From Cyanobium sp. ATX 6A2 (GTDB lineage Bacteria; Cyanobacteriota; Cyanobacteriia; PCC-6307; Cyanobiaceae): a DNA stretch of 64,000 nucleotides. A program made the position numbers and the translations under genes. Below the pieces are notes generated by a model. That model did no database searches and had not been told where the DNA came from. It was given only the letters and a program-made list of their open reading frames with translations. Positions 17,735-41,275 of the stretch are shown here, piece after piece. The DNA lies in contig NZ_JAGQCU010000007.1 of NCBI RefSeq assembly GCF_024346355.1, positions 62,001 to 126,000 of the forward strand, in the 5' to 3' direction. The stretch's first letter is position 1; each line of letters opens with the position of its first letter.

Positions 17735-18210
<476 letters not shown>

Positions 18211-18220
<10 letters not shown>

Positions 18221-18909
18221 GACTGCTGGATCCGTTCAAGGGCCAGCCTGGCGCGCAGCTGCACCACCGGAGGGTTGCCGTCTCGATCACCGTCCAGGCT
18301 GCGCAGCCCCGCCAGCAGGGCCTGGAGAGGCTGGCCACGGCTCTGCAATCGGCTGGCCAGGGCTTCGAGGGCCACGGCCACCGCGTAGCGCACCACCCAT
18401 TCACCGTCAGCGCTGGCGGCCAGCAGGGCCTGCAGGCAGCGCTGCAGGATCCGCTCCTGCTCCGGCGCCGGCAGCTGGGCCAGTTGCAGGTTGCCCAGCC
18501 CCTTGGCGGCAGCCCGGCGCACGCTGGCGGCCACATCGCTCCCCAGGGCATCCACCAGCAGCTCCAGGCCGCGCACGTCGCCGATCCCGGCCAGGGCCCT
18601 CACCGCCCAGGCCCTGGCGCCGTAGTTCTCAGCATCGAGCTGCAGCAGGGCCTCCACCGCCGCCCCCTGCAGCCGGATCAGCCCATCCACGGCGGCCACG
18701 GCGGCACCGGGGTTGTTGAAGCCCAGCACCTCCACCAGCACCGGTGCGGCCTCGGGGTCGCCGCTGGCGGCCAGGTCCTCTGTGGACGAGAGCAGTGCCT
18801 CGCTGCTGTCGGCCCCGCGCACGGCAGCTACCAGCCGCTCAAGCCCCCTGCCATCGTTCTGTTCTGGGCGGTGGATCCCCGCTGCCGTGCACTCATCCAT
18901 GGGGGTCAC
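18211..18909 (-). CDS. cpcF: Phycocyanin alpha-subunit phycocyanobilin lyase, CpcF subunit
   Basis: Protein of 232 residues built of HEAT-like repeats (for example APVLVEVLGFNNPGAAVAAV, RAWAVRALAGIGDVRGLELL, RRAAAKGLGNLQLA and VVRYAVAVALEAL). With CpcE it forms the heterodimer that attaches phycocyanobilin to Cys84 of CpcA, and can also remove or transfer it. It overlaps the cpcE stop by 4 bases (ATGA). The gene lies next to a decayed cpcB-cpcA copy, the classical cpcBA-cpcEF order. CpcF is assigned from its size and its position after cpcE. Confidence 0.87.
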
Positions 18910-19754
18910 AGCAGTTCGTCCATGCAGGCCAGCAAGGCCGGTTGGCTGGGCTCGCCGCTGCCCTGCTCCACCAGCCCGCGCAGGGCCATCAGCTTGAGGC
19001 TGTTTTCCGCCAGGGTGCGGCGGATCGGCTCGAGGGCGGGTCGCCAGCCGGCCGCTCCCAGATCCATCAGGGCGGCGCGTCGCACCTGCAACTGGGGATG
19101 CTCCAGCAGGTTCACCAGCACCGCACCCCAGCGCGCTTCGCCGCTGAGCTGCAGCAGGGCGCGGGCGGCGGCGCTGCGGATCAGGGGCCGTTCGTGATCC
19201 ACGAAGGGTTCCACCACGGCCAACACCGGCTCTGTGGCCAGGCCGATGCTTCCCAGGGCCTCCAGCAGGGCCTCGCAGGGCTCCATCAGCCGCGGGGTGC
19301 CGGGACGCGGGGCGCCGGCCTGCTGCGGCCCGCTGGCCAGCCGCCGGCAGATCGGTGCCACCGCCTTCTGGGCGCGCAGGTCGCCCAGGGCCCGCGCCGC
19401 AGCTTCCCGTAGACCGTCGTCCGGGTCCTCCAGCACCTCGAGCAGGTCGCTCACCACCGCCAACGCCAGCGGCGCCAGCTTGCCCAGGGCCCTGGCGGCG
19501 TTGCGGGCCACGGCGTTCTCCTCAACACCGGCCCCGAGGTCGCGGGGACGGCGCTGGCGCAGGGCGAGCCTCAGCAAAGGCACGGCTTCGGGATGCTGGC
19601 TGCGCATGCGTCCCAGCCACCAGGCTCCGTAGTACTGCTGGGAGGGATCCTGGCTCTGCCGCAGGCGTTCGATGGCTTCGGCTTCGCTGATCGGTGCGCC
19701 GACCTGCTCGTCTGAGGGGCTCGCCTCAGGGCTGTTATTTGGTGGACCCGCCAT
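18906..19754 (-). CDS. cpcE: Phycocyanin alpha-subunit phycocyanobilin lyase, CpcE subunit
   Basis: Protein of 282 residues with an N-terminal SEAEAIERLRQSQDPSQQYY and WWLGRMRSQHPEAVPLLRLA, typical of CpcE, then HEAT-like helices (ALGKLAPLALAVVSDLLEV, AAARALGDLRAQKAV, IRSAAARALLQLSGEARWG). It pairs with CpcF to attach phycocyanobilin to CpcA Cys84. Having CpcE/F, rather than a PecE/F or RpcG type enzyme, argues that CpcA carries phycocyanobilin, thus C-phycocyanin. It is the first gene of cpcE-cpcF-phosphatase. Upstream is a pseudogene of cpcBA in the same orientation. Confidence 0.92.
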   Translation of the reverse strand: MAGPPNNSPEASPSDEQVGAPISEAEAIERLRQSQDPSQQYYGAWWLGRMRSQHPEAVPLLRLALRQRRPRDLGAGVEENAVARNAARALGKLAPLALAVVSDLLEVLEDPDDGLREAAARALGDLRAQKAVAPICRRLASGPQQAGAPRPGTPRLMEPCEALLEALGSIGLATEPVLAVVEPFVDHERPLIRSAAARALLQLSGEARWGAVLVNLLEHPQLQVRRAALMDLGAAGWRPALEPIRRTLAENSLKLMALRGLVEQGSGEPSQPALLACMDELL

Positions 19755-19940
19755 GGCTTCCGGTGGATCGTGTGCAGATTACGAAAGCACCCCTGCACCG
19801 CATGGACACCGCAGCCCCCCAAGCAGACGTCAGGGTGTTCTCGGAGCCTTTTGTGCGCTCCGCGTGTTCATGACCACTCCCCAAGACAAACGTCTCCCGT
19901 AAGGAAGACCCTGGGGAATGGTCTGAAACCACAGAAAGGC

Positions 19941-20157
19941 TCATACGAGAGCGGAGACTGCATCGACGAAGCTGGAGTTGTTGGCAATCACCCCAGGGTC
20001 GCCGGAGTTGCCGTGGTTAGCCTGGATTTGGTTCAGGGCGACATACCGGGAGGGGAGAGTTCGAAGTCGTCCTTTAACGCATCGAGACCGGCGATCAGGT
20101 GCTCATCCATGGGGATGGTGCCACCACCACGATGCAGTCGGTGACCCTGCGCAGGGA
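19941..20157 (-). pseudogene. cpcA remnant (phycocyanin alpha), frameshifted and truncated
   Basis: The 3' part of a cpcA is recognisable on the minus strand. A piece reading LRRVTDC is followed after a frame change by PMDEHLIAGLDAL and FELSPPG. After a stop, in another frame, NQIQANHGNSGDPGVIANN leads to a C-terminus SSFVDAVSALV ending at TGA 19941. The intact CpcA here reads [37 protein letters not shown] and INALV at the same places. The 5' half is missing. It cannot give a working subunit. Confidence 0.9.
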
Positions 20158-20466
20158 CTAATGGAGCAGTCGCCCATAGTGATGCCGTAAGGATTGTTGT
20201 CGACAGCGTGGTCCTCACGCAGGCCGTTGGGAGAGCTGTCTTCCATCACGGAAGCGTCGCCAGCGAACACAGCGGAGGCCGAGTCTCGAAGAGATTGCCA
20301 ACGGCGACGGTGCTGATCTGGGAGGCGTTGGAGGTGGTGCGGTTGACGGCATCAACCCCTTGTCGCTGTCTCGGACCCTCGTCGCGGGGATGTCGATCTG
20401 ATCACCATTGATAAATTTGCCGCGGGCGTCAGCCTGGTCAACGTCCTTGGGGAAAACGTCAAACAC
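20158..20466 (-). pseudogene. cpcB remnant (phycocyanin beta), frameshifted with deletion
   Basis: From 20466 the frame reads MFDVFPKDVDQADARGKFIN then GDQIDI, matching the intact CpcB start [20 protein letters not shown]. The start codon is GTG instead of ATG. A frame change follows, then SAVFAGDASVMED, SPNGLRE and, after an internal deletion, DNNPYGITMGDCS. The bases upstream keep the CGAGAA-AGGAGCTCC leader seen before the intact cpcB. At about 20158 the sequence jumps straight into cpcA, so the cpcB end and cpcA start were deleted. No functional product is expected. Confidence 0.9.
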
Positions 20467-20807
20467 TGTGGAGCTCCTGTTCTCGTCATGGGAGTCGGAC
20501 TATCAAAGGGTGCAGTGGTCGGAGGCAGGCCTACCTGTCCGGCAGTCTTTGCTTGGCAACGGTCACTCTCTGCACAACCCTTGGCGACTCGGGAGGGCTT
20601 CAGAAGGCATCGCCGCAGCTGCAGCCGCAGGCCCATGGCGCCCTGGCTGGCCCCCAGTGCTGCTTTGATCGCTGCGCACCGGATTCCCGCGGGCTGGTCG
20701 CGTTGTGAAGACACGCAACCCTTCGCAAAGAGGGGCGCCCGTGCATGTCGCTCCCCTTAGGTTGACGCTGTGCCCTGCCGGCACAACTGACCTCATGATT
20801 TCCACCC
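20467..20807. other. Intergenic region between phycocyanin relict and ho1
   Basis: About 340 bases. The first 20 are the leader of the cpcB relict with its ribosome-binding site. The rest holds no supported gene; it is where the old cpcB promoter and the ho1 promoter should lie. I can name no clear box. Confidence 0.5.
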
Positions 20808-21527
20808 ATGGCCGTTGCCCTTGCCTCCCAGCTGCGTGAAGGGACCAAGAAAGCCCACACGATGGCCGAGAACACCGGCTTCGTGAGCTGCTTCCTCAAG
20901 GGCGTGGTGGACAAGGCCAGCTACCGCACCCTGGTGGCCGACCTCTACTTCGTGTATTCGGCGATGGAAGAGGAGATCGGCAAGCTGCGCGAGCAGGGCC
21001 ACCCGGTGGTGGCACCGGTGGGCTCCCCTGAGCTCAACCGCCGGGAGGCCCTCGAGCAGGACCTCGCCTATTACTTCGGCGCCGACTGGCGCAAGGCCAT
21101 CGAGGCCACCCCCGCCGCCCGGGAGTACGTGGCCCGCATCCACCAGCTGGGGACCGAGAGCCCGGAGCTGCTGGTGGGCCACCACTACACCCGCTACATC
21201 GGCGATCTCTCCGGCGGCCAGATCCTCAAGGCCATCGCCCAGAAGGCCATGAACCTGGGTGAGCACGACGGCCTGCGCTTCTACGAGTTCGACGCCATCG
21301 CCGACGAGAAGGCGTTCAAGACCGCCTACCGCGCCACCCTCGACAGCCTGCCGATCGACCAGGCCACCGCCGACCGGATCGTGGCGGAGGCCAACCACGC
21401 CTTCCACCTGAACATGAAGATGTTCCAGGAGCTGGAGGGCAACCTGGTGGCCGCGATCGGCAAGGTGCTGTTCGGCTTCCTCACCCGCCGCCAGCGCGCC
21501 GGCAGCACCGAGGCGGTGGTGGCCTGA
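20808..21527 (+). CDS. ho1: Heme oxygenase (HO1)
   Basis: Protein of 239 residues. HO1 opens heme to biliverdin IX-alpha, CO and iron with electrons from ferredoxin, the entry step of bilin synthesis. It begins LASQLREGTKKAHTMAENTG, where His in KKAH is the proximal heme ligand. YFVYSAMEEEIGKL and the distal helix RYIGDLSGGQILKAIAQ are diagnostic, as is EANHAFHLNMKMFQELEGNL. It is soluble. The location in the phycobilisome region, near pebA-pebB, fits a role in pigment supply. Confidence 0.98.
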   Translation: MAVALASQLREGTKKAHTMAENTGFVSCFLKGVVDKASYRTLVADLYFVYSAMEEEIGKLREQGHPVVAPVGSPELNRREALEQDLAYYFGADWRKAIEATPAAREYVARIHQLGTESPELLVGHHYTRYIGDLSGGQILKAIAQKAMNLGEHDGLRFYEFDAIADEKAFKTAYRATLDSLPIDQATADRIVAEANHAFHLNMKMFQELEGNLVAAIGKVLFGFLTRRQRAGSTEAVVA

Positions 21528-21933: not shown

Positions 21934-22067
21934 GCCGCGTGTTCGGCCCACCTTCCCATGGCGAAGCGGTGAACGGAGCCCGACGCCGCGAGCAGGTAGC
22001 AAGAATCACAACAGCCCTGATGCCGGCCACTAAGATTTACAAATATTTACGGGCTGCGTGGCTCCAG

Positions 22068-22985
22068 ATGACCTCCTCCCCTGATCTGGCCTCCCTCTAC
22101 CAGCTGCTGGCCAGGCAGCAGAGGCCCATCCTGCCCTCGGGTGAGCGGCGCGCCATCCTCGGCTGCGGGTACGTGGGCGAGGCGGTTGCCAGGGCCTGGA
22201 AGCAGGAGGGGCATGCACTGTGGGCAACCACAACCCGGCGCGAGCGCTTGGGCGAACTCTCCGAGTTGGTGGACACCCCACTGATCTTTGATTCGACCGA
22301 CTCCAGCACCAACCTCGATTTCGCCGCAGATCTCGATGGGATTTTGGTGTCCTTCGCGCCCTCGAAGAGTTCTGAGGTTGATCTCACCCAATACCGGCGG
22401 ACGTTTCTTGGTGGCTTGCAGCGTCTCACTGAGACGCTGGATCGGCGCCCCCACGGCACACCGCTGCAGCTGGTCCATCTGAGCAGCTGTGGCGTTTACG
22501 GCAACCGGCAGGGTGCTGTCACCAGCGAAACCGCCCCCACAGACTTTGATCACCCCGTCAACCAGGTTCTGGTCAAGGCCGAAGAGATGATTGCGTCCAT
22601 CCGCTCCGACAGGATCAAGGTCTGCGTGCTGCGACTGGGCGGTATCTATGGACCCGGTCGCGATATTCCAGCGATGCTGTTGTCGGCGGCTGGCGGCTTG
22701 GTTCAACGCAATGGTCTGAACGTGCCGTGCTGGATCCACCGCGACGACATCGTTCGAGGTGTCTGCTTCGCTTTCGAGCAGGGGCTGAACGACACATACA
22801 ATCTTGTCAATGACACCCAGCTCAGCGGACAGGAGCTCACGGATCGCCTCTGTGAGAAGGCTGGCCTGCCCCTAGCCATGTGGATGACGATCAACACGAG
22901 CGATCGGGTGCTGAACGCGCGCGTCAGCAATGACAAGATCAAGCAGCTTGGCTTCGCCTTCACTCACCCATGCATGGTGGGGTGA
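22068..22985 (+). CDS. NAD-dependent epimerase/dehydratase family protein
   Basis: Protein of 305 residues from ATG 22068. It carries an extended SDR Rossmann fold: RRAILGCGYVGEAVARAWK (dinucleotide-binding glycines), a middle LVHLSSCGVYG with Ser and Tyr of the catalytic triad, then VNQVLVKAEEMI and VLRLGGIYGPGRDIP. The C-terminus has WIHRDDIVRGVCFAFEQGLN and a YNLVND motif. It probably acts on a nucleotide sugar or similar compound. It is in the phycobilisome region but nothing links it to pigment chemistry. Its stop overlaps the facing gene by 22 bases. Confidence 0.85.
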   Translation: MTSSPDLASLYQLLARQQRPILPSGERRAILGCGYVGEAVARAWKQEGHALWATTTRRERLGELSELVDTPLIFDSTDSSTNLDFAADLDGILVSFAPSKSSEVDLTQYRRTFLGGLQRLTETLDRRPHGTPLQLVHLSSCGVYGNRQGAVTSETAPTDFDHPVNQVLVKAEEMIASIRSDRIKVCVLRLGGIYGPGRDIPAMLLSAAGGLVQRNGLNVPCWIHRDDIVRGVCFAFEQGLNDTYNLVNDTQLSGQELTDRLCEKAGLPLAMWMTINTSDRVLNARVSNDKIKQLGFAFTHPCMVG

Positions 22986-23800
22986 TACCTGCGCTCCACC
23001 CAGCGCATGAGGTGGTGATTTTCATCGTAGTCGATGATCAGATGCACAAAACTGCTGGCATCCAACAGACATCCGAAGTGGAGCGCAAATGACCCCTCCG
23101 GTAAACAACCTGGCAGGCTGCAGATCAGATTGTCCAGAAGGAAGCCATTCACATCATGTCGGCAAAAGCTTTCTGCATTGAATGGCATCAGTGGCTTGAT
23201 TTGTGTTGCGAGTTCGCTCGATAGACCGGGTCTCAGCTCTTGCTCCACTCCAAGCCAGCCTGCTACGGTTATGATCAGAGCATCCACAGACTCTGGCTGA
23301 TCCCGCACGGGATCTTGGTGTGCTCGTTGGCAGCGAAACGGGATGGCTGCGATTGAATCCAGAATCATTCGGCCATCAGCCTGCCGCTGATAGAGCGCAA
23401 CCAGCATCGATCGTGAGCGGCCGGTGAAGAAATTCACTTCATGTCCCGCGCGCGCAGCGCTCCCGCCCATCTCCAGGCTTGACTGACCTGCGGTCTCCGG
23501 AAAATGCCAGCAGTTGTTGCCCAGGTTGTAGTGGTGTCGATTCAGGGGGAATCGGCGTTCTCTACCCGGGGCGAATCGCAGACCGGTTCCATGCCACTCA
23601 CCTGTATCAGCATCAGAAAATCGAATGGCATACAGCGATCCGGTCGGATTGCATGTGCCGTGGTTCAGATCCATGCCGTGGGCGTCTCGGCCGTACCAGG
23701 TCGTCATCCCTAACCAGTCGCCATCGAAGCTGGCTCGCATCAGATCCCACTGCCGATCAGCACCTGCGTTGGTCCGGTTGGTTGTGTCTTCCATGGTCAT
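22964..23800 (-). CDS. DUF3598-like protein, calycin-type fold suspected
   Basis: Protein of about 278 residues from ATG 23800 (ATG 23794 is possible). It has WDLMRASFDGDWLGMTTWYG near the start, then an aromatic, repetitive strand pattern (LYAIRFSDADTGEWHGTGLR, HYNLGNNCWHFPETAGQ) and a late ALHFGCLLDASSFVHLIIDY. The alternation of strands with conserved W, G and N residues is like cyanobacterial DUF3598 proteins, which may bind small hydrophobic ligands. Its base composition is lower in GC than the flanks. It overlaps the facing epimerase gene at its 3' end by 22 bases. The function is unknown; a bilin or lipid carrier role would be speculation. Confidence 0.5.
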   Translation of the reverse strand: MTMEDTTNRTNAGADRQWDLMRASFDGDWLGMTTWYGRDAHGMDLNHGTCNPTGSLYAIRFSDADTGEWHGTGLRFAPGRERRFPLNRHHYNLGNNCWHFPETAGQSSLEMGGSAARAGHEVNFFTGRSRSMLVALYQRQADGRMILDSIAAIPFRCQRAHQDPVRDQPESVDALIITVAGWLGVEQELRPGLSSELATQIKPLMPFNAESFCRHDVNGFLLDNLICSLPGCLPEGSFALHFGCLLDASSFVHLIIDYDENHHLMRWVERRYHPTMHG

Positions 23801-24096
23801 CAGCTCAGCACCGAGATGCCATTGTCTGATCCTGTCATGCTGATCAGAGGCCCGGATGAGGGGCAGCCCTGGGACCAAGCCGCAGCTGGCCGAGCGATGG
23901 TTTGATCTTGTGTGATTGTCTGCCGTTCAATTCCGGCAGCTGAAAGCTTGCAGCGTTTCGACCGTGAGGTGTCTTCTTCGACTCCTCTGCGCCATCCCAA
24001 ACGTCTCCTCCTGCGCACCTGCCACCTGAGGCTCCAGGGGTGCCTGTTGACCCCAGACCCGGATTTACCATTGGCCAACAGCGGGATCGGCAGGCT

Positions 24097-25284
24097 ATGG
24101 CCAAGGTGGGCGGCAAAGTGGGCGTGCTGCTGCTGAACCTCGGGGGTCCGGAGCGGATCCAGGACGTCGGCCCCTTTCTGTACAACCTCTTTTCGGATCC
24201 GGAAATCATCCGGCTGCCGAACCCGGCGCTGCAGAAACCACTGGCCTGGCTGATCAGCAGCCTGCGAGCGGGTAAATCCCAGGAGGCCTACCGCTCCATC
24301 GGTGGCGGCTCCCCCCTGCGGCGCATCACGGAGCAGCAGGCGCGGGAGTTGCAGAGCGTGCTGCGCCAGCGGGGCATCGAAGCCACCAGCTACGTGGCGA
24401 TGCGCTACTGGCATCCGTTCACCGAATCGGCGGTAGCCGACATCAAGGCCGACGCCGTCGATGAAGTGGTGGTGCTGCCCCTCTACCCGCACTTCTCGAT
24501 CAGCACCAGCGGCTCCAGCTTCCGGGAATTGCAGCGCCTGCGCCAGGCCGATCCCGCCTTCGCCGCCCTGCCGATCCGCTGCATCCGCAGCTACCACGAC
24601 GATCCCGGCTACATCGGCGCCATGGCCGAGCTGATCGCCCGCGAAATCCAGGCCTGCCCCAACCCAGCCACGGCCCACGTGTTCTTCAGCGCCCACGGGG
24701 TGCCCAAGAGCTACGTGGAGGAAGCAGGCGATCCCTACCAGCGGGAAATCGAGGACTGCAGCCGGCTGATCATCGAGCGCCTGGAGCGCGACCTCGGCCA
24801 CGCCAATCCCCACACCCTGGCCTACCAGAGCCGGGTGGGTCCGGTGGAGTGGCTGCGGCCCTACACCGATGAAGCCCTGCAGGAACTCGGGCAGCAAGGG
24901 GTGAAGGACCTGGTGGTGGTGCCGATCAGCTTCGTGAGCGAACACATCGAAACCCTCGAGGAGATCGACATCGAGTACCGCGAGATCGCCACCGAGGCAG
25001 GGATCACCAACTTCCGCCGGGTGCCTGCCCTCGACACCACCCCCTCCTTCATCGAAGGCCTGGCCCAGCTGGTGCAGCAGGCATTGGAGGGCCCGGAGGT
25101 GAACCTCGATCAGGCCGCCTCTCTGGCCACCAAGGTGAAGCTCTACCCCCAGGACCGCTGGGCCTGGGGCTGGAACAACAGCTCCGAAGTGTGGAACGGT
25201 CGCTTGGCGATGGTGGGATTTTCTGCTTTTCTGCTCGAGTTGATCAGTGGTCGGGGGCCCCTCCATGCCATCGGCCTGCTTTGA
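24097..25284 (+). CDS. hemH: Ferrochelatase with C-terminal chlorophyll-binding-like helix
   Basis: Protein of 395 residues from ATG 24097. It inserts Fe2+ into protoporphyrin IX. Signatures are [74 protein letters not shown] (catalytic His), [19 protein letters not shown] and [17 protein letters not shown] (catalytic Glu). The last 40 residues, [20 protein letters not shown] followed by an ELISG end, form a single LHC/Hlip-like helix, normal for cyanobacteria. Heme from here feeds ho1 and, with PebA/PebB, phycoerythrobilin. Confidence 0.97.
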
Positions 25285-25292
25285 TCCTTGTT

Positions 25293-26797
<1,505 letters not shown>

Positions 26798-26816
26798 CTA
26801 CAGAGCAGTGGGGGGG

Positions 26817-27404
26817 TTAACTGAGACCGGCGGCCAGGGCATCGGCGCTTTCCCGAAGCGACTCAAGAGCCTCGAAAGAGGGGCAGCGAAGCTCCGTGCA
26901 GAAGGTGGTCATCGACACACCATCCAGGCACTGCACCGAACTCACCCGCATGCGCACCTGATCCGTCACGAACCAGCAGCGCTCCGTACCCACATTGCTG
27001 TCGTAGCGAGTGGTTACAGCCATGACGCCATCTGGGGAAAATGTGTATTCACTAAGCACGGGCTGTTTCTCCACGTAGCCCTTGTCACGGACAAGAAATC
27101 CCTGGGAGGGATCTCCCACCAAAGGTATGTCAATGAGTAGAGCCGCTTGGTCTTCTGTTCTGGCCAGGGGTTTGAGATTGCTCTCCCACCAGAAGCGGGC
27201 CCCGCCGGCGGCCAATCCAGGATCGATGCCAAGGGCAAGACAGATCTGCTCGACGGCGGGATCCAGAGCGCAGAAGGGCTCGATCACCAGGTTGGAATCG
27301 CCGAACTCATCGTCCTGGTGATCGAAGTGGTGCACGGCCCGCCTTGTCAGCCAGACACCTCGACTGGCCGCCAGGAACTGGGCCATCGATCGGGCTGGGT
27401 CCAT
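26817..27404 (-). CDS. CpeS/CpcS family phycobiliprotein lyase
   Basis: About 195 residues from ATG 27404; ATG 27386 (MAQFLAASRGVW) is an alternative. The family pattern is MAQFLAASRGVWLTRRAVHH, ending in the typical ERCWFVTDQVRMRVSSVQCL and MTTFCTELRCPSF. This fold, a ten-strand calycin barrel, attaches bilins to the Cys82-type position. It is the second CpeS/CpcS protein in the window. The one at 34.0 kb lies beside cpeT and is the better CpeS; this one may be CpcS or CpeU, acting on allophycocyanin, phycocyanin or phycoerythrin beta. Sequence alone does not decide. Confidence 0.85.
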   Translation of the reverse strand: MDPARSMAQFLAASRGVWLTRRAVHHFDHQDDEFGDSNLVIEPFCALDPAVEQICLALGIDPGLAAGGARFWWESNLKPLARTEDQAALLIDIPLVGDPSQGFLVRDKGYVEKQPVLSEYTFSPDGVMAVTTRYDSNVGTERCWFVTDQVRMRVSSVQCLDGVSMTTFCTELRCPSFEALESLRESADALAAGLS

Positions 27405-27438
27405 TGGGTGTCTCGAGCAGGAGGAAAGGGGCGTGGGA

Positions 27439-27693
27439 TTAGGCCTGTTCGGCCTTCTGAGACTCAAGCTGGGCCAGGATGGCTTCGATCCTCGCCAGCT
27501 CCGGGTGCTGCGTCAGGGTGAAATCCACCTGCTTCTGCGGCAGCTTCAGCCTCTGGCCCATTCCGATCACATCCTTGATCAGCCGATCGCGATAGGCCGT
27601 GAGCTGCTCAATCGACTCCTCCAGCTCCTCCTGGCTGGGTACGGCGGCGTTGATCGCAGACGTGTCGGCGCGAGCAGGGGTGCCGTCGGGCAT
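27439..27693 (-). CDS. Conserved small protein of the phycobilisome region
   Basis: Protein of 84 residues, mostly helical. It contains SQEELEESIEQLTAYRDRLI then KDVIGMGQRLKLPQKQ and ends in a repetitive AILAQLESQKAEQA. It has a coiled-coil look with no membrane segment. It precedes the CpeS/CpcS-type lyase gene by 34 bases on the same strand, so it is probably cotranscribed with that gene. No function is known to me. Confidence 0.7.
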   Translation of the reverse strand: MPDGTPARADTSAINAAVPSQEELEESIEQLTAYRDRLIKDVIGMGQRLKLPQKQVDFTLTQHPELARIEAILAQLESQKAEQA

Positions 27694-28636
<943 letters not shown>

Positions 28637-28683
28637 TTCATCCGAAGAGATTGCTCTCTTTTCACCAACTACCACACCCTTAA

Positions 28684-29193
<510 letters not shown>

Positions 29194-29225
29194 TCAGTCT
29201 CTGATCATTTGTTGAGGAGAAACCA

Positions 29226-29250
29226 GGAGGCCTCAGGGCCTCCTTTTTTT
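29226..29250 (+). terminator. Rho-independent terminator after cpeBA
   Basis: A perfect GGAGGCC...GGCCTCC stem with a short loop (29226-29243) is followed by TTTTTTT. It lies between cpeA and cpeZ. It probably ends most cpeBA transcripts, or lets a small share through to cpeZ, giving far less lyase than antenna protein. Confidence 0.92.
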
Positions 29251-29287
29251 GTGAGAAAATAAACCTTCACTGACCCCTTTCCCCTGG

Positions 29288-29908
29288 ATGGACATGGAAC
29301 CGTTGGATCTGTTGTTTGAGGATCTGGCTCACCCCAATCCCTACATCCAGAACCAGGCCTTCACGGCCATGGTCCGCGACTGGCCCCAGCAGGCTCTTCC
29401 CCGTCTGCTCGGTCTCTTGGCCCAACCGGACATCAGCTTGCGCCGGGCTTCCGTGCGCGGCATCGGCGCCTTTGGCGCTGCCGCCTTGCTGCCCCTGGCT
29501 GATCTGCTGCAGGCCAGCACGGACAGCACCATCCGAGCCAGCTGCGTGAAGGCCTATGCCCAGGTGGCCTCCAACAAGCCGGGGATTCAGTTTCCCGAGG
29601 CGGCTATGCAGGCCATCGAGGAGGCCCTCAGCGATCCCTCACCGGTTGTTGCTGTGGCTGCAGTGATGGCCCTTGGGCAGGTGGGACAGCAGGCGTTGCC
29701 ACTGCTGCTGAACGTGGTGAACGGTGACAACCCAGCCCAGGCCGTGGCTGCTGTGAATGCACTCGCCCAGATTGATGATCCGGCCGTTGTGCAGAGTCTG
29801 CGTGATCTGCAGCAGCAGCCACAGGTCGACCGTTATGTGCTCGAGTCGTTGGAGTCGGCCCTGTCTCGCATGAGCGATCTGCGTGCTCGTCAACCGCAGT
29901 CGCGCTGA
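29288..29908 (+). CDS. cpeZ: Phycoerythrobilin lyase subunit CpeZ (HEAT repeat)
   Basis: Protein of 206 residues (an ATG 29294 start is possible). It has HEAT repeats from the first residues: PLDLLFEDLAHPNPYIQNQA, ALPRLLGLLAQPDISLRRAS, ALLPLADLLQASTDS and VVAVAAVMALGQVGQQALPL. CpeZ aids CpeY in attaching phycoerythrobilin to CpeA Cys82 and may act as a chaperone in CpeB chromophorylation. It sits between the cpeBA terminator and the HEAT-repeat gene at 29.9 kb on the other strand. The identity rests on size, repeats and location. Confidence 0.85.
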   Translation: MDMEPLDLLFEDLAHPNPYIQNQAFTAMVRDWPQQALPRLLGLLAQPDISLRRASVRGIGAFGAAALLPLADLLQASTDSTIRASCVKAYAQVASNKPGIQFPEAAMQAIEEALSDPSPVVAVAAVMALGQVGQQALPLLLNVVNGDNPAQAVAAVNALAQIDDPAVVQSLRDLQQQPQVDRYVLESLESALSRMSDLRARQPQSR

Positions 29909-29927
29909 TGCGGGGCGAACAACCTCG

Positions 29928-30818
29928 TCATCTGTTCAACTGATTGATGGCCAGTTCCAGAACAACCCGGACATCAGGGTGTTCTTCCCGGTCCACACTG
30001 GCCTGCAAAGCAGGCAGTGCGTGCTTGGCTCCCAGCTTCATCAGCGAAAGGGCTGCATTCTTGCGGACCTGTTCTTCCGCGTCGGTGAGCAGAGGGAGCA
30101 GACGCGGGCAGGCCCATTCGGGCTCGTGCAGCTTCCCCAGCAAGGTTGCCGCTTCTGCGCGCACCTCGGTGTCCGGGTCATCCAGCGCGTACAGCAGCAG
30201 TTGTCTCGCCCGAACATCTCCCAGGGCCTGGATCTGATCGCCGAGGGCTGCAACCGCCGCTGCCCTGATCCCGGCATCCGGCGAGCTGGCTGCCTGGCGA
30301 AGTGCCTCGGGGGCCTTGGCGCCGATGAAGGCGATCCCCCAGCTGGCCAGACCCTGTTGCATGGCTGAAGCTTCTGGATGCACCAGCACCGAGAAGAGCT
30401 GATCGAGGGCAAGCTCACCGACTGCAGCCATCGCTCCGACAGCCGATCCCTGCACAACGGGATCCGAATCTGCCAGCAAGGCCTCGAGCAATGTGGGCAA
30501 GGCAGCGGGATTGGCGATCAGGGTCAGCGTTTTGGCCGCGGCGCGGCGAACGGTGACATTTTCATGGCAGCGCAATGCACGGCAGAGTGCGGGCACAGCC
30601 GCCCCACCCACCACGCCAAGGCTTTCGGCAAATGTGAGCCGCATCAAGCCCCTGGCATCACCCAGGCCGGCCACCATGCGTTCAATTGCTTCGCTGTCGG
30701 AGGCAGGCACCAGCCCCTCGCGTAGTTGGGAGCGGAGCTCTGCCGCCAAGGTGTTGGCCTCCTCCACGCTCAGTTTCTGGTTCCCAGAGCCGGGGGCCAT
30801 GGACAGCTCGTCAGACAA
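29928..30818 (-). CDS. cpeF: Bilin lyase of the CpeF/MpeV type (HEAT repeat)
   Basis: Protein of 296 residues built of HEAT repeats: IERMVAGLGDARGLMRLTFA, ESLGVVGGAAVPALCRALRC, RRAAAKTLTLIANPAALPTL, VVQGSAVGAMAAVGELALDQ and later DPDTEVRAEAATLLGKLHEP. CpeF attaches phycoerythrobilin doubly to CpeB Cys50/Cys61 in other cyanobacteria. This protein has the right size and neighbours for CpeF/MpeV. A confusion with NblB-type HEAT proteins, which are about this size, cannot be excluded from sequence alone. It faces cpeZ with 19 bases between stops. Confidence 0.75.
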   Translation of the reverse strand: MSDELSMAPGSGNQKLSVEEANTLAAELRSQLREGLVPASDSEAIERMVAGLGDARGLMRLTFAESLGVVGGAAVPALCRALRCHENVTVRRAAAKTLTLIANPAALPTLLEALLADSDPVVQGSAVGAMAAVGELALDQLFSVLVHPEASAMQQGLASWGIAFIGAKAPEALRQAASSPDAGIRAAAVAALGDQIQALGDVRARQLLLYALDDPDTEVRAEAATLLGKLHEPEWACPRLLPLLTDAEEQVRKNAALSLMKLGAKHALPALQASVDREEHPDVRVVLELAINQLNR

Positions 30819-30893
30819 GGGCCTCGCTCATCTCAATCTGAATTATCGGGGGCAGCCGTGGTGTTTCTATGGTGTGCTTAACAAGATCAGGCC

Positions 30894-31322
30894 ATGACCC
30901 GCTTTCTGCTGTCCCACAATCTCCAGGTCGATTCCGACCGCCTGCCTGCTCTGAGTGCCGTGGATCTGGCGACTGGCCTTGCGGCACACGTGCCCACCGG
31001 TATCCAGGCCCAGGCCCTCAGTCACCCCCACTGGTTGGTTCAGGTGGAAGCCGATCTGCTGCCCGCCGATCTGGCCGAAGCCGTGCTCCTGGCCTGGAGA
31101 CGGTTGCGCTCCAGTGCGGGCGCTTCCGTTGACACTTGCCAGTTGCTGGCCTTGGGCGGTCGCAAGGATGATCCCGCCGGCCCTGGGGCTGTGCTGCAAC
31201 AAGGTGACTGGGGAGTTGATGTGGTGGAAACGCTGGATGTTGTCGCGTTCTTGCAGTCGATTAACTGGGAACAGCTCAAACAGGGGCGTGCTGCCGATGG
31301 TGTGTTTGAGCTTCGGGGGTGA
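30894..31322 (+). CDS. DUF2656 family protein of the phycobilisome region
   Basis: Protein of 142 residues. It begins MTRFLLSHNLQVDSDRLPAL, contains LSHPHWLVQVEADLLPADLA and LLALGGRKDDPAGPGAVL, and ends QGDWGVDVVETLDVVAFLQS followed by ELRG. The order of the SHN start, HPHW, a LxLGGRKD turn and the WGVDVVET core fits the cyanobacterial DUF2656 family. The function is unknown; its place among cpe genes suggests a role in phycoerythrin assembly. It abuts the facing gene: the two stops form TGATCA at 31320-31325. Confidence 0.8.
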   Translation: MTRFLLSHNLQVDSDRLPALSAVDLATGLAAHVPTGIQAQALSHPHWLVQVEADLLPADLAEAVLLAWRRLRSSAGASVDTCQLLALGGRKDDPAGPGAVLQQGDWGVDVVETLDVVAFLQSINWEQLKQGRAADGVFELRG

Positions 31323-31643
31323 TCAGCGCTGTTTGCGCCGGCGGCGTGGCGGTTTCGGTTCGGACACAGGTGGTTGACCAGGCTCCATGGCCAGTCCGGT
31401 CGCCGCTATATCCCCCTCCAAGCCGCGCACGGTCGCAACCGTGATTCCGTTCTGGTGGAGCTGCTGCAGGCTGTGGCTCAGCATCTCTCGTGGAACCCGA
31501 AGCTGTTGGCACGGCCTCTGGGTCGTTTCAGAGCGCACACCGGTCACAACCAGAAGTGCATCAGCGAGATGGGGGCCCATGGCGTCTCCGATTTGGTTGG
31601 CTTCAGGTTGGTCGTCTTCTGGGTGAACCGTATCAAGCCTCAC
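31323..31643 (-). CDS. Small protein with CpcD-like fold and basic tail
   Basis: Protein of 106 residues. The middle, LLVVTGVRSE, then LRVPREMLSHSLQQLHQNGI followed by TVATVRG, has the spacing of a CpcD (capping linker) domain: a V-x-G strand, a VPxxxLxxxLQxIHxxGG helix and a closing strand. It ends in KPPRRRRKQR, strongly basic. There is no linker domain of the ordinary kind. It may cap or bind phycobilisome rods, but this fold is inferred from pattern only. The stop abuts that of the DUF2656 gene. Confidence 0.6.
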   Translation of the reverse strand: MRLDTVHPEDDQPEANQIGDAMGPHLADALLVVTGVRSETTQRPCQQLRVPREMLSHSLQQLHQNGITVATVRGLEGDIAATGLAMEPGQPPVSEPKPPRRRRKQR

Positions 31644-31748
31644 AGTTCTTAAAACTGCGTCGCTGTCGCCCCGCTGCCGAGCAGAGTTGGAATCAGCTCC
31701 CCCTCGAGCTGCACGGCTTCAACCGCTGCGAAACCTGAGAACAGCATT

Positions 31749-33104
31749 GTGCCCAGTTCAAGCAACAGCTACGACAATATTCATCCGGGGCTCAGTCATC
31801 GCGATGCGCTGGCCATTCTCGAGCAGTCCCTGAGTGAGCTTGATTCCGCCAGCGACTACTACATGGCGGCTGCTCATCTCGTGAACTTCCCGGGCAAGGT
31901 CACGGAAGACGCGCTGCTACGGCTCATCGAGAATCCTTCAGCTGAACAGGCTGTCAACCACGCGCGCCGAAAAGCCGTGGAAGTTCTGGGGCGACTGGGG
32001 ACTCAGCGGGCCATCCCCTGCATCGGCCGCTGTCTGCGGAGCGATGATCGCTATCTTGTTGAAAATGCCGCCTGGGCTCTTCTGCAACTTCAGTGTCAGG
32101 ACGCCGAACTGCACCAGGCGATGTGTCAGCGTCTCAGCGATCCAAGCCAGAGCCGCAGGGTGTTGATTCAGGCTCTGGCGGGGCTGGGAGTTCGTGCTGC
32201 GCTGCCCGTGCTTCAGTTGCTGCAGGACGATGAGAATCCAGGGGTGCGCGGGGCGGCTCTGGCGGGTGTGGCCCAGCTCACTGGCGATGGCAGTCGCCTG
32301 CAGGACCTGGAGGATCATCTCACCCTGCCGAACCAGATGGACCGGCAGTCGGCGATTCAGGATCTGATCGACAGCCGGGCTTCTTGGTTGCTGCCTTCAA
32401 TCCTCAAAGCGCCTGTTTCACCTGTGTTCAGGCTACGCGCCCTGCGGGCACTCTGGCCGGTGCAGGACACACAACACGCTGGCCTCGATCTACTGGCCTG
32501 TCTGGATGCCTTGATGCGCGACCATCCCGAAGATCTCGTGTTGGTGCACTGTTACGACACGGAGCCGACCACGTCCTTCCTGTTTGAGGAATTCTTTGGC
32601 ACCGATTTCAGTCGTTGCTATCTAGCTCTGGCCACATTGAAGCAGAGGTCCCCAGCTGAGCTCTGGCCTGTTTTCTGGAAGCGATGGCTGGAGGATGCCC
32701 ATAACGACTATGGCGCCCACTACTTCTTCATTAAACTCCTCGGCAGTGTGGTCGACTGGCCTTCCGATGCCTTACCAACCATTCAGGCCCTGCTGCTTGA
32801 GGCCATCAACAGCAAGCGACCACAATTTATGAAGTCAAAACCGGCTGCCTGTCTGGCGCTGAATAAGCACTATCACGCTATCTGGAGCAATGACCTCCAG
32901 CATTGGCTCTCCCCTGATCGCTCACCGAACTGGGAGCTCCGCTATACAGCCTGGATGGGTGTTGAATCCATCGGTGGTGGGAAAGTTCTTGATCGCCTCC
33001 TTGCGAACTTGCCGGAAGTGTTGACCTGTCAAGACCCTGATCCTTTCGTTGACCGAAAACGTCAGCTACTGATCTCTGAAAATCGGGTCTGGAAGGAACC
33101 ATGA
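31749..33104 (+). CDS. cpeY: Phycoerythrobilin lyase subunit CpeY (HEAT repeat)
   Basis: Protein of 451 residues from a GTG start at 31749. It has a HEAT-like N-terminal part (PGLSHRDALAILEQSLSEL, RKAVEVLGRLGTQRAIPCI, NAAWALLQLQ), a middle with PNQMDRQSAIQDLIDSRASW, and a longer C-terminus with YDTEPTTSFLFEEFFGTDF and YGAHYFFIKLLGSVVDWPSD, as in CpeY. It attaches phycoerythrobilin to CpeA Cys82, helped by CpeZ. Its 3' end overlaps the facing cpeR by 43 bases. Sampled base composition is lower in GC than the flanks. Confidence 0.93.
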   Translation: MPSSSNSYDNIHPGLSHRDALAILEQSLSELDSASDYYMAAAHLVNFPGKVTEDALLRLIENPSAEQAVNHARRKAVEVLGRLGTQRAIPCIGRCLRSDDRYLVENAAWALLQLQCQDAELHQAMCQRLSDPSQSRRVLIQALAGLGVRAALPVLQLLQDDENPGVRGAALAGVAQLTGDGSRLQDLEDHLTLPNQMDRQSAIQDLIDSRASWLLPSILKAPVSPVFRLRALRALWPVQDTQHAGLDLLACLDALMRDHPEDLVLVHCYDTEPTTSFLFEEFFGTDFSRCYLALATLKQRSPAELWPVFWKRWLEDAHNDYGAHYFFIKLLGSVVDWPSDALPTIQALLLEAINSKRPQFMKSKPAACLALNKHYHAIWSNDLQHWLSPDRSPNWELRYTAWMGVESIGGGKVLDRLLANLPEVLTCQDPDPFVDRKRQLLISENRVWKEP

Positions 33105-33373
33105 TTTGCCCAATAGCGCTGAATCTCCAGCCCTCTCGGGCGTGGTACACCTGCTTCTGCCCTCAAGATCTTGAATGTGCGCCGCGGTCCCATGGGCCAG
33201 TTGCCGACGGCGCGTACCACACGTACGTCCCCGCCTAGAACTCTAAGGCAGTCTTGAAATCGCTCCAACTGCGTTTGATCGACTGTTTCAAACACAAAGT
33301 CTTGTCCTAGGCAGATCAGGTGTTGCGAGCGGATCCAGCTACGGAATTGCTGGTTAGCCCTATCAATATCCAT
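33062..33373 (-). CDS. cpeR: Phycoerythrin operon activator CpeR
   Basis: Protein of 103 residues. It contains FRSWIRSQHLICLGQDFVFE followed by TVDQTQLERFQDCLRVLGGD, then WPMGPRRTFKILRAEAGVP, matching cyanobacterial CpeR. CpeR is required for cpeBA transcription in phycoerythrin-containing strains (known from F. diplosiphon). It is 10 bases downstream of cpeT on the same strand, so it is probably expressed with cpeS-cpeT. Its 3' end overlaps cpeY. The frame has lower GC than the flanks. Confidence 0.88.
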   Translation of the reverse strand: MDIDRANQQFRSWIRSQHLICLGQDFVFETVDQTQLERFQDCLRVLGGDVRVVRAVGNWPMGPRRTFKILRAEAGVPRPRGLEIQRYWANHGSFQTRFSEISS

Positions 33374-33383
33374 AATCCCTGTG

Positions 33384-34022
33384 CTAAATAATGATATTTG
33401 AGTCTGTTTCTTTCTCTGCCATTCGGCTCACCCACTCGGCGGTGATGTCGCTCTCAAAGCTGGCAACACGTTCAAACTGCAGCGGCCCATGTTCGGAGCC
33501 CCACTGCAGCTCATCGGTGGCTGGATCAAAACCCTGATCTCGACTGATCCAACGCTCGCGGTCGACCAACACCTCGCTCACCAGATAGGTGCGCCGTCCA
33601 TTGCGTGGCACTAAGCAGATCTGACCAGGTTCCAATCCACCGCTGAAACAGCCTGGAGCCGTCTCACGGAAATGCATAGCACAACCACAGCGCTGCTTGA
33701 GCCGATCAGCACGAATGATCTTGAGCAGTTCAGGTGTGAAGCCTCCCCCAGCCAGCCGTATCGGTGTGTCGAATCCATAGTTCTCAACGACCTGAGTTTG
33801 TTCCGATGGAATCAGTCGATGAACGCCCTGTCGATAGGGTCGCCAAGGATCGTGATCGTAGCTTTGTTCAGAGTAAAAACCAGGGCCGTTAAACACTTCC
33901 CATGGAAGAGGTCGGAAATAGATATTGATGTGCGCATACTTTATGGGGTCACATTGTGACTGGGCGGCATTGCTATAGTGGCCCGCCAGTGTCTTCGCGA
34001 ATCTCAAGGCAAGTTCAGTCAC
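33384..34022 (-). CDS. cpeT: Chromophore lyase CpeT
   Basis: Protein of 212 residues. It starts MTELALRFAKTLAGHYSNAA and has YAHINIYFRPLPWEVFNGPG, then FYSEQSYDHDPWRPYRQGVH, a CAMHFRETAPGCFSGGLEPG region and YLVSEVLVDRERWISRDQGF. CpeT attaches phycoerythrobilin to CpeB Cys159-type sites in related strains. It is 12 bases downstream of cpeS. The second CpeT/CpcT-family protein in the window (44.1 kb) is placed next to phycocyanin genes, so the two probably serve PE and PC respectively. Confidence 0.93.
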   Translation of the reverse strand: MTELALRFAKTLAGHYSNAAQSQCDPIKYAHINIYFRPLPWEVFNGPGFYSEQSYDHDPWRPYRQGVHRLIPSEQTQVVENYGFDTPIRLAGGGFTPELLKIIRADRLKQRCGCAMHFRETAPGCFSGGLEPGQICLVPRNGRRTYLVSEVLVDRERWISRDQGFDPATDELQWGSEHGPLQFERVASFESDITAEWVSRMAEKETDSNIII

Positions 34023-34034
34023 GTTGGTTCTTGT

Positions 34035-34577
34035 TTAATCTAATGACTCCAAGCGCCGGATTTCGGATGCGAAGGATGTCTGCAGTACCCCTGAACCGGC
34101 CGAGGTGCGCAGCACTGAAGAGCGGCAGCGAACATTCTCAGATACGAACCAAATCCGCTCCTCTGCAATGGATTGACCATATTGTGTGTGCAGTATGAAA
34201 GTATCATCTTCGAGAAATGTGTAGTTTGATATTGCTTGTTCAGATTCTGCGTATCCGGCGCTTCGCAGCATGATCCCCTTGCAATGATCTGATGGCACTG
34301 GGACGAGAACACATGATCCAGCCGATATCTCGCTGGGGTCATCGGGTTCCCAGTCGCTTTCAGCATGCCATTCCATTCTAAAAGGAAGCAATGGTTCGGT
34401 GGTGCTGACTGAGGATTCGTGCAGTAGCTGAAGAACCAGTGGATCTTGGGGATCCATTGCTTCGATCAAGACCGAACTGCGGACGTCCTCAAATTGCTGA
34501 AAAGCAAGAGAATGACCGCTTCTCATGGAACGCCAGCGGCCCAGACTGCGTGCAATGAAGGTTTCAAGCTGCATCAA
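34035..34577 (-). CDS. cpeS: Phycoerythrobilin lyase CpeS
   Basis: Protein of 180 residues (ATG 34577 or 34574). The N-terminal LETFIARSLGRWRSMRSGHS then LAFQQFEDVRSSVLIEAM is the CpeS/CpcS signature; SAGSCVLVPVPSDHCKGIML and the C-terminal EERIWFVSENVRCRSSVLRT follow. CpeS attaches phycoerythrobilin to CpeB Cys82. Order cpeS-cpeT-cpeR on one strand supports this. It is the more CpeS-like of the two family members here. The composition is AT-rich relative to neighbours. Confidence 0.9.
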   Translation of the reverse strand: MMQLETFIARSLGRWRSMRSGHSLAFQQFEDVRSSVLIEAMDPQDPLVLQLLHESSVSTTEPLLPFRMEWHAESDWEPDDPSEISAGSCVLVPVPSDHCKGIMLRSAGYAESEQAISNYTFLEDDTFILHTQYGQSIAEERIWFVSENVRCRSSVLRTSAGSGVLQTSFASEIRRLESLD

Positions 34578-34871
34578 CGCTGATCAGGCCTTGTCTTGGT
34601 GAGCTGTCCTCCCGGATGGGAGACGACCTCCTTGGACCATATGCACCCAGGTTTCGATCATCATGTTGATGGCGGGTGGTTGTGCGTCAGTGCTTTGATT
34701 CGCCTGTGGCACATATAGCCATCGATTGTTGCTGTTTCTGGAGTTCATAGTTGTCATTTACGAAATCGGTGAGAATGGGGATTGGGGCGATAAGGCCCTG
34801 CCGAATCATGGTTAGAATCTTTTTGGCATGGGGCTCGTTTCACCCCCCTTCCCGCCTCTTTGTAATCCTTT
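34578..34871. other. Gap between cpeS and the cpeE linker
   Basis: About 290 bases, low in GC, with no supported gene on either strand. It should contain the promoter of cpeS-cpeT-cpeR and a 3' region of the linker operon. I could not pick out a clear terminator or -10/-35. Confidence 0.45.
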
Positions 34872-35612
34872 TCAGGATTCGGTGACTGATGCGATTCGAC
34901 CTCCACGCCGATGAACCGACTGGATGGCGGATGAGAGCGAGCTGAAGGGAACGGTGGTGATTTGTTTGACTCGGCGATTGACGCCAACAGGATTGGCAGT
35001 TGTCCAGCGAATCACAAAGCGCTGGCTGTCACGGCCACCTGGGCCTGGAGTTTTTTGGCTGTCTCTCGGGGTTGAGCCGGTGGCCAGGCTGATCAGCAAT
35101 TGTGATTGCTGATCACCATCAAAACCAGCAAAACCTGAAGCTAATGCACGCGTTCTGTTGTACGTCACGTTTGATTCGCCACACTGGCTTATGGCGCCTC
35201 GGTCAAAAGGCACTGTGTCAAATCCGAAGACTTCCAAGTACTCAGCGCTGTACATATAGCTGTTAATTTCTGCTTCATAGCCATTATCAGCCAGGATCTG
35301 TACATGTTCACTGAGTTCAGCTTGATTTCGTGGGGCCCGGCCCAACAAATGCTTGAAGTTGAGTTCAACAAAGCGATAGGGGCCATTGGCATCAAAAAAC
35401 AGGCGGCGATAGGTGTCAGACAGGGCCAAGGCATTGATCAGGCCTTGCACAGTGAGATCGCCATTGCAAAACAGGCTTTCGGCTGTGAGGGAACGATCTT
35501 CCTCAAAGAGGTGGGCATTGCCGAAGACCTGGCGGTAGGCGGCATTCAGCTGGGCCTGGGCCTCTGACTGGCGCAAATCAGAATTGGGGCCGGCGAGAGT
35601 TGAGTTGAGCAT
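34872..35612 (-). CDS. cpeE: Phycobilisome rod linker, CpeE-like
   Basis: Protein of 246 residues from ATG 35612. A single PBS linker domain spans about residues 20-150: AQLNAAYRQVFGNAHLFEED, FVELNFKHLLGRAPRNQAEL and a NGYEAEINSYMYSAEYLEVF end. A CpcD domain ends it (TVPFSSLSSAIQSVHRRGGR). These linkers hold phycoerythrin hexamers in the rod. Size and order, after the double-domain linker, fit CpeE of marine Synechococcus. The gene is in a minus-strand run with the next two linkers. Confidence 0.85.
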   Translation of the reverse strand: MLNSTLAGPNSDLRQSEAQAQLNAAYRQVFGNAHLFEEDRSLTAESLFCNGDLTVQGLINALALSDTYRRLFFDANGPYRFVELNFKHLLGRAPRNQAELSEHVQILADNGYEAEINSYMYSAEYLEVFGFDTVPFDRGAISQCGESNVTYNRTRALASGFAGFDGDQQSQLLISLATGSTPRDSQKTPGPGGRDSQRFVIRWTTANPVGVNRRVKQITTVPFSSLSSAIQSVHRRGGRIASVTES

Positions 35613-35685
35613 GGCTTTTATGGGGGCTTGGGGAGAGGATGGGAGAAAGCGAGCTGGCGTGGCGGGAAGGTGGGTACGCTTGGGT

Positions 35686-37305: not shown

Positions 37306-37436
37306 GGCAGGAAGGGAGTGGTGTTCTGCTGGTGCTGGATGTGTACCTGCAAGCAGCATGATGATTGTGATTGCGTTCTAGGTTGCAGACTTGAGCTTTT
37401 CTGGTGGCTCAGGAGAGCTCAAGCCAGCCTGGCTAA

Positions 37437-38321: not shown

Positions 38322-38482
38322 GTCATTGCTGGCGAAACATGGTCATCATCGCTTTCATCCAGTGCCTCCACGGTCGAACTTTATAAACCTCAATCTTTTA
38401 CATCATTGTGTTGCCTGACTCCTGTCCTCGCTGCCCGCGGCTCCTGGCAGGGCCCCGTCAACCGTCACTTTTTGGGCCGGTT

Positions 38483-39238: not shown

Positions 39239-39311
39239 TTGCGATTGTGCCCCACTCTCGGGTCAGTTCCGATGCATTGCAGTGGATGGCTGGGGCGCCA
39301 TCACCCTTGCG

Positions 39312-40786: not shown

Positions 40787-41275
40787 TCAGACGAGCGCGT
40801 TGATGGCGTAATCCAGGTAGTTGTTGGCTTCGGTGGCAGCTTCACCGGCAAGACCATGGTTGGCCTTGATGTAGTTGAGGGCTTCGACGTACCAAGAGGG
40901 GGAGAGTTCGAAGGCGCGGTTGATCTCGTCGAGACCGGCGATCAGGTACTCATCCATAGGGCCTGTACCACCAGCCACGAGGCAGTAGGTGACCATGCGC
41001 AGGTAGTAGCCGATGTCCCGGGCGCACTTGGCCTTGCCGCGGGCGTCGGAGGCATAGTTGGGCCCCTGCATCTGGGTGGTGTAGGGGAATTTGCTGTAGA
41101 CGGCCTGTGCTGCGCCGTTCACAAGCTGATCAGACTTGGCAGTGAGTCCCTTGGCGGCCTCGAGGGCGTTCTTGGCGCGCTCGAAACGACCGAAGGCAGC
41201 ATTGAGCTCGGTGTTGGAGAGGAAGCGGCCCTGGGAATCGGCAGAGGCGACGGCTTCGGTGAGGGGGGTCTTCAT
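40787..41275 (-). CDS. cpcA: Phycocyanin alpha subunit
   Basis: Protein of 162 residues. It begins [20 protein letters not shown], carries its bilin at [20 protein letters not shown] (the Cys84 position), and ends [13 protein letters not shown]. Phycocyanobilin is attached by CpcE/CpcF (18-20 kb), so this is a C-phycocyanin alpha. It is the last gene of cpcBA, with a strong terminator. It is intact, in contrast to the decayed copy at 19.9 kb. Its GC content is high, like the chromosome flanks. Confidence 0.98.

Follow-up and report, generated by a model that had tools for sequence, protein, structure and literature searches.

Two arrangements of phycocyanin (PC) rod genes come closest to the locus described here. 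The type I green operon runs cpcC-cpcD-cpcBA-cpcEF, and the available portion of its description includes a green operon with two identical cpcBA copies plus an extra solo cpcB, as well as the replacement of PC genes by phycoerythrin (PE) genes in WH7805 (Six et al. 2007, PMC2246261). Type IIB clusters, together with their lower GC content and their lateral transfer, have also been published (Larsson et al. 2014, PMC4139726). As far as the accessible text of two papers describes them, these clusters carry cpcCD and cpcBA at one end beside an aplA-like gene, PE I genes, hemH next to pebAB, and a heme oxygenase gene inside, at a GC content below that of the surroundings (PMC4139726, PMC6363710). 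The route by which freshwater picocyanobacteria switch between green and red is disputed, with lateral transfer (Larsson et al. 2014) set against inheritance with losses (Sanchez-Baracaldo et al. 2019, PMC6363710).

Organization of the rod locus

We analyzed a stretch of 64,000 nucleotides from the genome of Cyanobium sp. ATX 6A2, here called the window. It contains a type IIB rod locus, in which a PE region of ~18 kb divides an operon that green relatives carry without interruption. A cpeT/cpcT-like gene, cpcC, cpcD, and cpcBA span 44.8 to 40.8 kb on one side of this island; on the other side, after the hemH end, HO1, a fossil cpcBA copy, cpcE, cpcF, and a phosphotyrosine phosphatase gene follow in this order. 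The island edges and cpcBA copies next to cpcD and next to cpcEF are referred to as left and right, respectively. The features are as follows:

17735..18220, minus strand: low molecular weight phosphotyrosine phosphatase, the usual end of the rod locus
18211..18909, minus strand: cpcF
18906..19754, minus strand: cpcE, HEAT-repeat lyase subunit
19872..19923, minus strand: strong hairpin in the fossil-cpcE interval, at the operon-terminator place
19941..20160, minus strand: fossil cpcA, of which the 3' part alone is left, with the green-type tail GVIANN and a TGA stop
20163..20466, minus strand: fossil cpcB, with a GTG start, frameshifts, and internal deletions
20467..20807: HO1-fossil spacer, with a ribosome-site leader at the fossil end; it resembles the right-junction spacers of G006, G010, G216, G250, and G309b
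20808..21527, plus strand: heme oxygenase HO1, divergent from the fossil, with a host-clade sequence
21939..40321: PE region (island), with hemH, pebAB, cpeS, cpeBA, lyases, linkers, and an aplA-like gene; GC3 below that of the flanks
28076..29193, plus strand: cpeB and cpeA (phycoerythrin I)
40787..41275, minus strand: working cpcA, a hybrid, host-type to ~40860 and with a red-type tail from ~40860 to the stop
41330..41848, minus strand: working cpcB, host-type, 95% identical to green G012
42153..42419, minus strand: cpcD-like linker, 99% identical to green G012
42475..43290, minus strand: cpcC-like rod linker, start uncertain, 96% identical to green G012

The assignment to type IIB follows from gene order: pebB and pebA lie on the minus strand and the ferrochelatase gene (hemH) on the plus strand, and cpcC, cpcD, cpcB, and cpcA are followed by a PF00502 protein at 39312 to 39908. 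The locus shares the type IIB features listed above; unlike the clusters in the accessible text of PMC4139726 and PMC6363710, the window and some relatives carry a second cpcBA, complete or decayed, between HO1 and cpcEF. With the type I green operon, as far as the available portion of PMC2246261 describes it, the locus has in common the same flanking genes in the same order and the phosphotyrosine phosphatase end, and it differs in that its operon is interrupted by the PE region, with PC genes remaining to either side. One cpeBA pair was named by NCBIfam; the genome has 11 PF00502 matches, the others not all being family-named. The PF00502 protein at the aplA place (39312 to 39908, minus strand) is diverged, scores under all NCBIfam subunit cutoffs, and has 45 to 62% identity among red genomes.

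No tRNA gene lies at an island edge, the tRNA genes of the window being located solely at 11428, 45151, and 59940. For this reason, and because the left-flank genes at 42.1 to 49 kb are common to green G012, tRNA-targeted integration was ruled out. Homologous recombination at shared flanking genes is a general mechanism that gives rise to islands. The window resembles such islands in its hybrid edge genes, foreign content, and host-like flanks; unlike them, its arms are the light-harvesting genes themselves, one of which is now a pseudogene.

A decayed cpcBA copy beside cpcEF

A preliminary description, made by reading the letters of the window, had proposed a decayed cpcB-cpcA copy directly upstream of cpcEF, with a GTG in place of ATG and the ribosome-binding leader of cpcB retained. 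Each of these points was borne out. A cpcB-cpcA pseudogene occupies positions 19941 to 20466 on the minus strand, between HO1 and cpcEF. All six of the quoted peptide pieces were found, in three minus-strand frames, with the first M encoded by GTG, and the leader is kept upstream of the fossil (CGAGAACAGGAGCTCCACAG versus CGAGAAAAGGAGCTCCTCAA). When region 19700 to 20900 was compared with the window by blastn, the sole match beyond itself was the intact cpcBA. The alignment of the two copies, which the preliminary description had proposed, consists of three pieces of 210 bp at 79% identity (E = 8e-45), 150 bp at 79% (1e-29), and 61 bp at 85% (7e-14), and homology spans both genes. A whole-genome search with 19860 to 20490 returned these three pieces and no other match with an E value of <0.2.

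Aligned with green G012, the fossil has lost 539 bp in 10 deletions and gained 3 bp in a single insertion. The length is not a multiple of three in 6 of the 11 indels, including one of 14 bp that falls in the cpcB-cpcA spacer. Relative to the consensus of nine green copies, the fossil differs at 39, 29, and 41 sites by codon position, i.e., 62% at positions 1 and 2; the corresponding share in 15 other counted rows was 4 to 37% in 14 and 41% in the left copy of the window genome. Judged by its sequence, with changes even over codon positions and its frames destroyed, the fossil is a pseudogene.

Between the fossil and cpcE, the hairpin at 19872 to 19923 scored a z of −4.95, with 0 of 200 shuffles as good, and exceeds in length the terminator that follows the working cpcA (z of −3.71). 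A mobile repeat was considered for this hairpin and rejected, as the genome search with 19860 to 20490 gave no other good match.

The two cpcBA copies look like reciprocal hybrids

In CpcA, the C-terminal tail separates green from red copies. GVIANN stands in the tail of all 10 readable green rows, each with GVIANNYIDYAI, and is found in four of five right-copy CpcA tails, the exception being GTIANN in G010; the fossil likewise has GVIANN. The motif is absent from all 14 left copies in red genomes (G230_L was aligned but is missing from this tally): 11, including that of the window, share one 16-letter red tail or STEANN..., and three of a second red layout read variants.

The intact cpcBA at 40.8 to 41.8 kb, which the preliminary description had taken as the working one, is indeed present, but it is itself a hybrid, red-type in about the last 25 cpcA codons. 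This left copy resembles G012 as far as cpcA codon ~137 and red copies from there on. With the G221 left copy as the red parent, informative sites split 132:18 before the breakpoint and 5:15 after it (0 of 2,000 shuffles). Eleven comparisons of this kind were made, in a test that treats neighboring sites as exchangeable; the count was 0 of 2,000 shuffles in nine of them and 2 of 2,000 in the other two. The breakpoint fell at positions 962 to 992 from the cpcB start in 10 of the 11, and at 848 to 869 with G173. Consistent with this switch, a tree of the first 984 bp placed the left copy with G012 at 100/99, and a tree of the tail placed it with red left copies at 90/81, the latter based on 75 bp with the bootstrap not settled. 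Other red left copies are also mosaic (G006, G216, and G246, with switches at 683 to 688 and 0 to 100 of 2,000 shuffles in six comparisons); thus, the window is not alone in switching type along cpcBA.

Within the fossil, comparison with four right copies revealed no significant breakpoint (145, 838, 239, and 1,238 of 2,000 shuffles), so that the right crossover was not located. When the fossil tail was tested against the left copy of the window, it favored G012 by 21 sites to 1 (1 of 2,000 shuffles). A hybrid gene is present, by its site pattern, at the left edge of the island, and the left and right copies look like reciprocal hybrids, the fossil having a host-type cpcA tail behind an island-type spacer.

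The right junction in red genomes

The HO1-fossil spacer of the window matches the right-junction spacers of G250 (z of 20), G216 (20), G010 (18), G006 (17), and G309b (14), with z scores computed from 200 letter shuffles each. The match is weaker in G309a (z of 5.5), though a right cpcBA is present there. Upstream regions of 11 chromosomal or single-copy HO1 genes gave z values of ≤3.8, and islands without a right cpcBA gave 2.8 (G221) and 2.5 (G173).

G006 is 98 to 100% identical to G010 and to G216, a member of another genus, through HO1 and the spacer (HO1 gene identity, 99.9% for G006/G010 and 98.0% for G006/G216), and identity drops at the first codons of the right cpcB. Inside the right cpcBA, 60-bp windows of G006 show 80 to 100% identity to G010 and 65 to 97% to G216, and 150-bp windows in the cpcE-cpcF stretch show 64 to 84% and 54 to 81%, respectively. 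In a tree of right-copy bodies, one group joined G216, G309, and G273 to green G021, which belongs to their genus (99/100), and another joined G006 to G010 (100/99). The host-wise grouping of the right bodies and the drop in identity at cpcB are consistent with the right copy being the cpcBA native to the recipient. The left side is less clear-cut: the near-identity of G006 and G010 begins within cpcC and not at cpcBA, and comparison of G006 with G216 or G250 gave no clean left edge. The near-identity of G006 and G216 is seen solely from the start of the G216 contig through HO1 and the spacer and is absent in the left part.

The HO1-cpcE interval across genomes

CpcE was found in 108 of 300 genomes. 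The survey of the slot upstream of cpcE comprised 106 loci, from 103 of those genomes (G309 twice) plus G016 and G036; G097, G225, G179, G146, and G168 were left out, as was G250, whose contig ends inside the right cpcB. HO1 lies just upstream of cpcE, with or without cpcBA between them, at 16 of the 106 loci. Five of these 16 have full-length cpcBA sequence (G006, G010, G216, G309a, and G273), two have remnants (the window and G309b), and nine have no cpcBA at the protein level, HO1 being ~170 to 470 bp from cpcE. The remaining 90 loci have cpcA upstream without HO1 in reach (61), pebB first (10), a CpeT-like gene first (2), nothing recognized despite ≥700 bp (4), or a contig end first (13).

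Even the full-length right copies are altered. In G006 and G010, both frames are open and the normal cpcB start is lost; the cpcA frame of G216 has no open stretch of 100 codons; the first codons of the G309a cpcB are not in frame; and both cpcB and cpcA starts are changed in G273. The preliminary description had suggested looking for an intact gene at the same place in related genomes. What these five loci hold, with both frames open at only two, supports the history proposed below rather than refuting it. By eye, cpcB and cpcA of G309b are fused at a short string that both share, G309 being a draft with two cpcE loci that may mix strains, and G246, one of the nine loci, seems to retain the last cpcA codons and the terminator. 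Across red genomes, right copies thus range from complete to erased, a gradation that can also be followed in other type IIB genomes.

Several loci showed individual arrangements. In G273 (L182, G273:C312:3500-10000), an open reading frame of 371 amino acids, transposase-like of the IS type by eye, lies between HO1 and cpcB. At L143 (G205:C11), HO1 is downstream of cpcF, between two phosphatase-like matches, in an arrangement unlike the others. A second red layout (L192, L193, L195, L197, L199, and L200) has HO1 beside cpeB and cpeS-pebAB on the cpcE strand; no cpcBA was recognized before cpcE at these loci.

Host relationships and a mosaic island

Contiguous cpcC-cpcD-(cpcBA)n-cpcEF was read in G012, L023, G002, G009, G005, G003, L028, and L029, with no cpe or peb genes within these eight operon stretches. 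Green relatives thus carry cpcBA directly before cpcEF, which agrees with the earlier view that the fossil belongs with cpcEF; tandem cpcBA in 2 to 4 copies is frequent among them. CpeB-like matches occurred in only three of 13 genomes of the genus, namely the window genome, G006, and G010. By purM, the window genome is closest to G012 and G011 (90% identity), followed by G001 and G004 (84%) and the other eight (77 to 80%, with G006 at 80%); the green status of these sisters comes partly from drafts, G001 being 87% complete.

The flanks are nearest to green G012, G011, and G004. Based on best-segment identities, with missing values uncounted, G012 was closest for all seven left-flank genes at 42.1 to 49 kb, and closest or tied for four of six right-flank genes, with G011 so for the other two. 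By the same measure, all 16 island open reading frames at 27.4 to 40.3 kb with both values, one of them an antisense frame, are closer to G173, of another genus, than to the red congener G006, by 1 to 20 points. On these identities, the island genes are discordant with the host over 27.4 to 40.3 kb. Four genes at 24.0 to 27.5 kb have no such preference for G173 over G006 (hemH, 90/87; pebB, 82/82; pebA, 86/86; cpeS, 85/84). GC3 of open reading frames at 21.9 to 40.3 kb is 0.50 to 0.74, except for hemH (0.85) and one small frame (0.82); neighboring genes on both sides, including HO1 and cpcBA, have 0.70 to 0.95.

The island HO1 belongs to the host clade, with 96% DNA identity to G012. At least two HO1 genes are among the matches listed for this genome (20808 to 21527 and L233, G000:C45:90500-93000), and they are 93% identical by DNA. 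A host-clade HO1 within the island suggests gene conversion or a separate exchange. Given this HO1 and the four genes without a G173 preference, the island is a mosaic and not a block of one origin.

Origin of the fossil copy

We propose, with a probability of roughly 0.75, that the fossil is the host's own cpcBA, which became isolated next to cpcEF through the recombination that brought in the PE region and which then decayed. A green ancestor would have recombined with DNA carrying a type IIB PE region, the common phycocyanin genes providing the homology, by a single crossover if that DNA was circular or by two if it was linear. The left junction would lie near the cpcA end and the right junction between the HO1 spacer and the cpcA tail. 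Such an event would leave a working hybrid cpcBA (host 5' part, red tail) on the left and a host-type cpcBA on the right behind the island's spacer. The stranded right copy, presumably redundant, would then have decayed by deletions and neutral change, and cpcEF was probably retained because the lyase was still needed. The preliminary description had read the site as a fossil of how the rod locus was rebuilt, in a cell that once made phycocyanin from this place, with cpcBA moved elsewhere and cpcEF left behind. As a record of rebuilding this reading stands, and PC was probably expressed here ancestrally; a simple relocation of the working genes does not fit, since the operon is split by the PE region, with cpcBA on each side and the right copy decayed.

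Alternatively, the PE region could be ancestral, the green sisters having lost it via recombination between directly repeated cpcBA, and the window having kept it as its right copy decayed. Excision would give the same hybrid pattern in reverse (a green cpcBA made of the left 5' part and the right tail), both copies are in the same orientation, and Sanchez-Baracaldo et al. 2019 (PMC6363710), in the accessible part of that paper, prefer inheritance with losses. However, the window genome groups by purM with G012 and G011 and then with G001 and G004, all without a CpeB-like match, so that several losses would be required; moreover, island frames are nearer to another genus than to red congeners, and island GC3 lies under flank GC3. 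Host relations, island identities, and GC3 favor a gain in this lineage, making island loss in the green sisters the weaker rival and, in our estimate, an unlikely one. As a further alternative, a redundant tandem copy might simply have decayed with no involvement of the PE region. This would be unremarkable where tandem copies are frequent and spare-copy decay is common, but we consider it highly improbable: the spacer of the fossil is common to red right junctions and not to green cpcB leaders, the left copy carries a red-type tail, and the slot is affected repeatedly in red genomes. The spacer and the hybrid left copy led us to drop tandem decay as the full story.

The remnant might instead be retained as a regulatory leader or attenuator for cpcEF, which would need a promoter after loss of the operon, and the very strong hairpin before cpcE favors such a role. 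We give it little chance, because nine red loci have HO1 close to cpcE with no cpcBA recognized at the protein level, and changes in the fossil are even over codon positions. That the remnant is a sequencing or assembly error is next to inconceivable, even though the genome is a draft in 46 contigs: the gene pair has lost about half of its length, the changes are scattered throughout, and relatives have other decay states at the same place. The absence of half of the pair and the differing states in relatives led us to drop the artifact reading.

Consequences of a stranded copy

If the fossil is the host's stranded cpcBA, the right-hand cpcBA preserves the junction in the DNA itself, which bears on the dispute over green/red change: this copy points to recombination inside common pigment genes and would show which copy is native in each genome. 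Its presence may also be the reason that many draft contigs break off immediately upstream of cpcE. Among open-access articles, represented mostly by titles and the beginnings of abstracts, none that we found describes a second cpcBA in the HO1-cpcE interval or a recombination junction at cpcBA.

The two copies of the window share exact runs of at most 19 bp, and those of G006, G010, and G216 share runs of up to 63, 41, and 36 bp, respectively; between tandem green copies, the longest run reaches 980 bp in G002 and 492 bp in G009. To judge from these runs, a decayed right copy should lower the likelihood that recombination removes the PE region from the window genome. Two cpcBA copies could conceivably act as a natural color switch, allowing deletion from red to green and serving as landing sites for PE regions, with right-copy decay locking the red state and being repeatedly favored; we regard this idea as doubtful, and selection for such locking as speculation. 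Red-to-green revertants are predicted to be findable in cultures with two intact copies.

A solo cpcB without an adjoining cpcA was also encountered in this genome and considered as a second discovery, an idea that was dropped since an extra cpcB without cpcA is already in print (Six et al. 2007, PMC2246261). In a comparison of solo-cpcB neighbors across 20 genomes with G221 as the reference, 13 had them in common, 2 weakly, and 4 not at all. In the window genome (L094, G000:C46:84000-96000, positions 6066 to 6236), the gene has shrunk to an open frame of 56 amino acids, which keeps the start and end of CpcB and has lost the middle.
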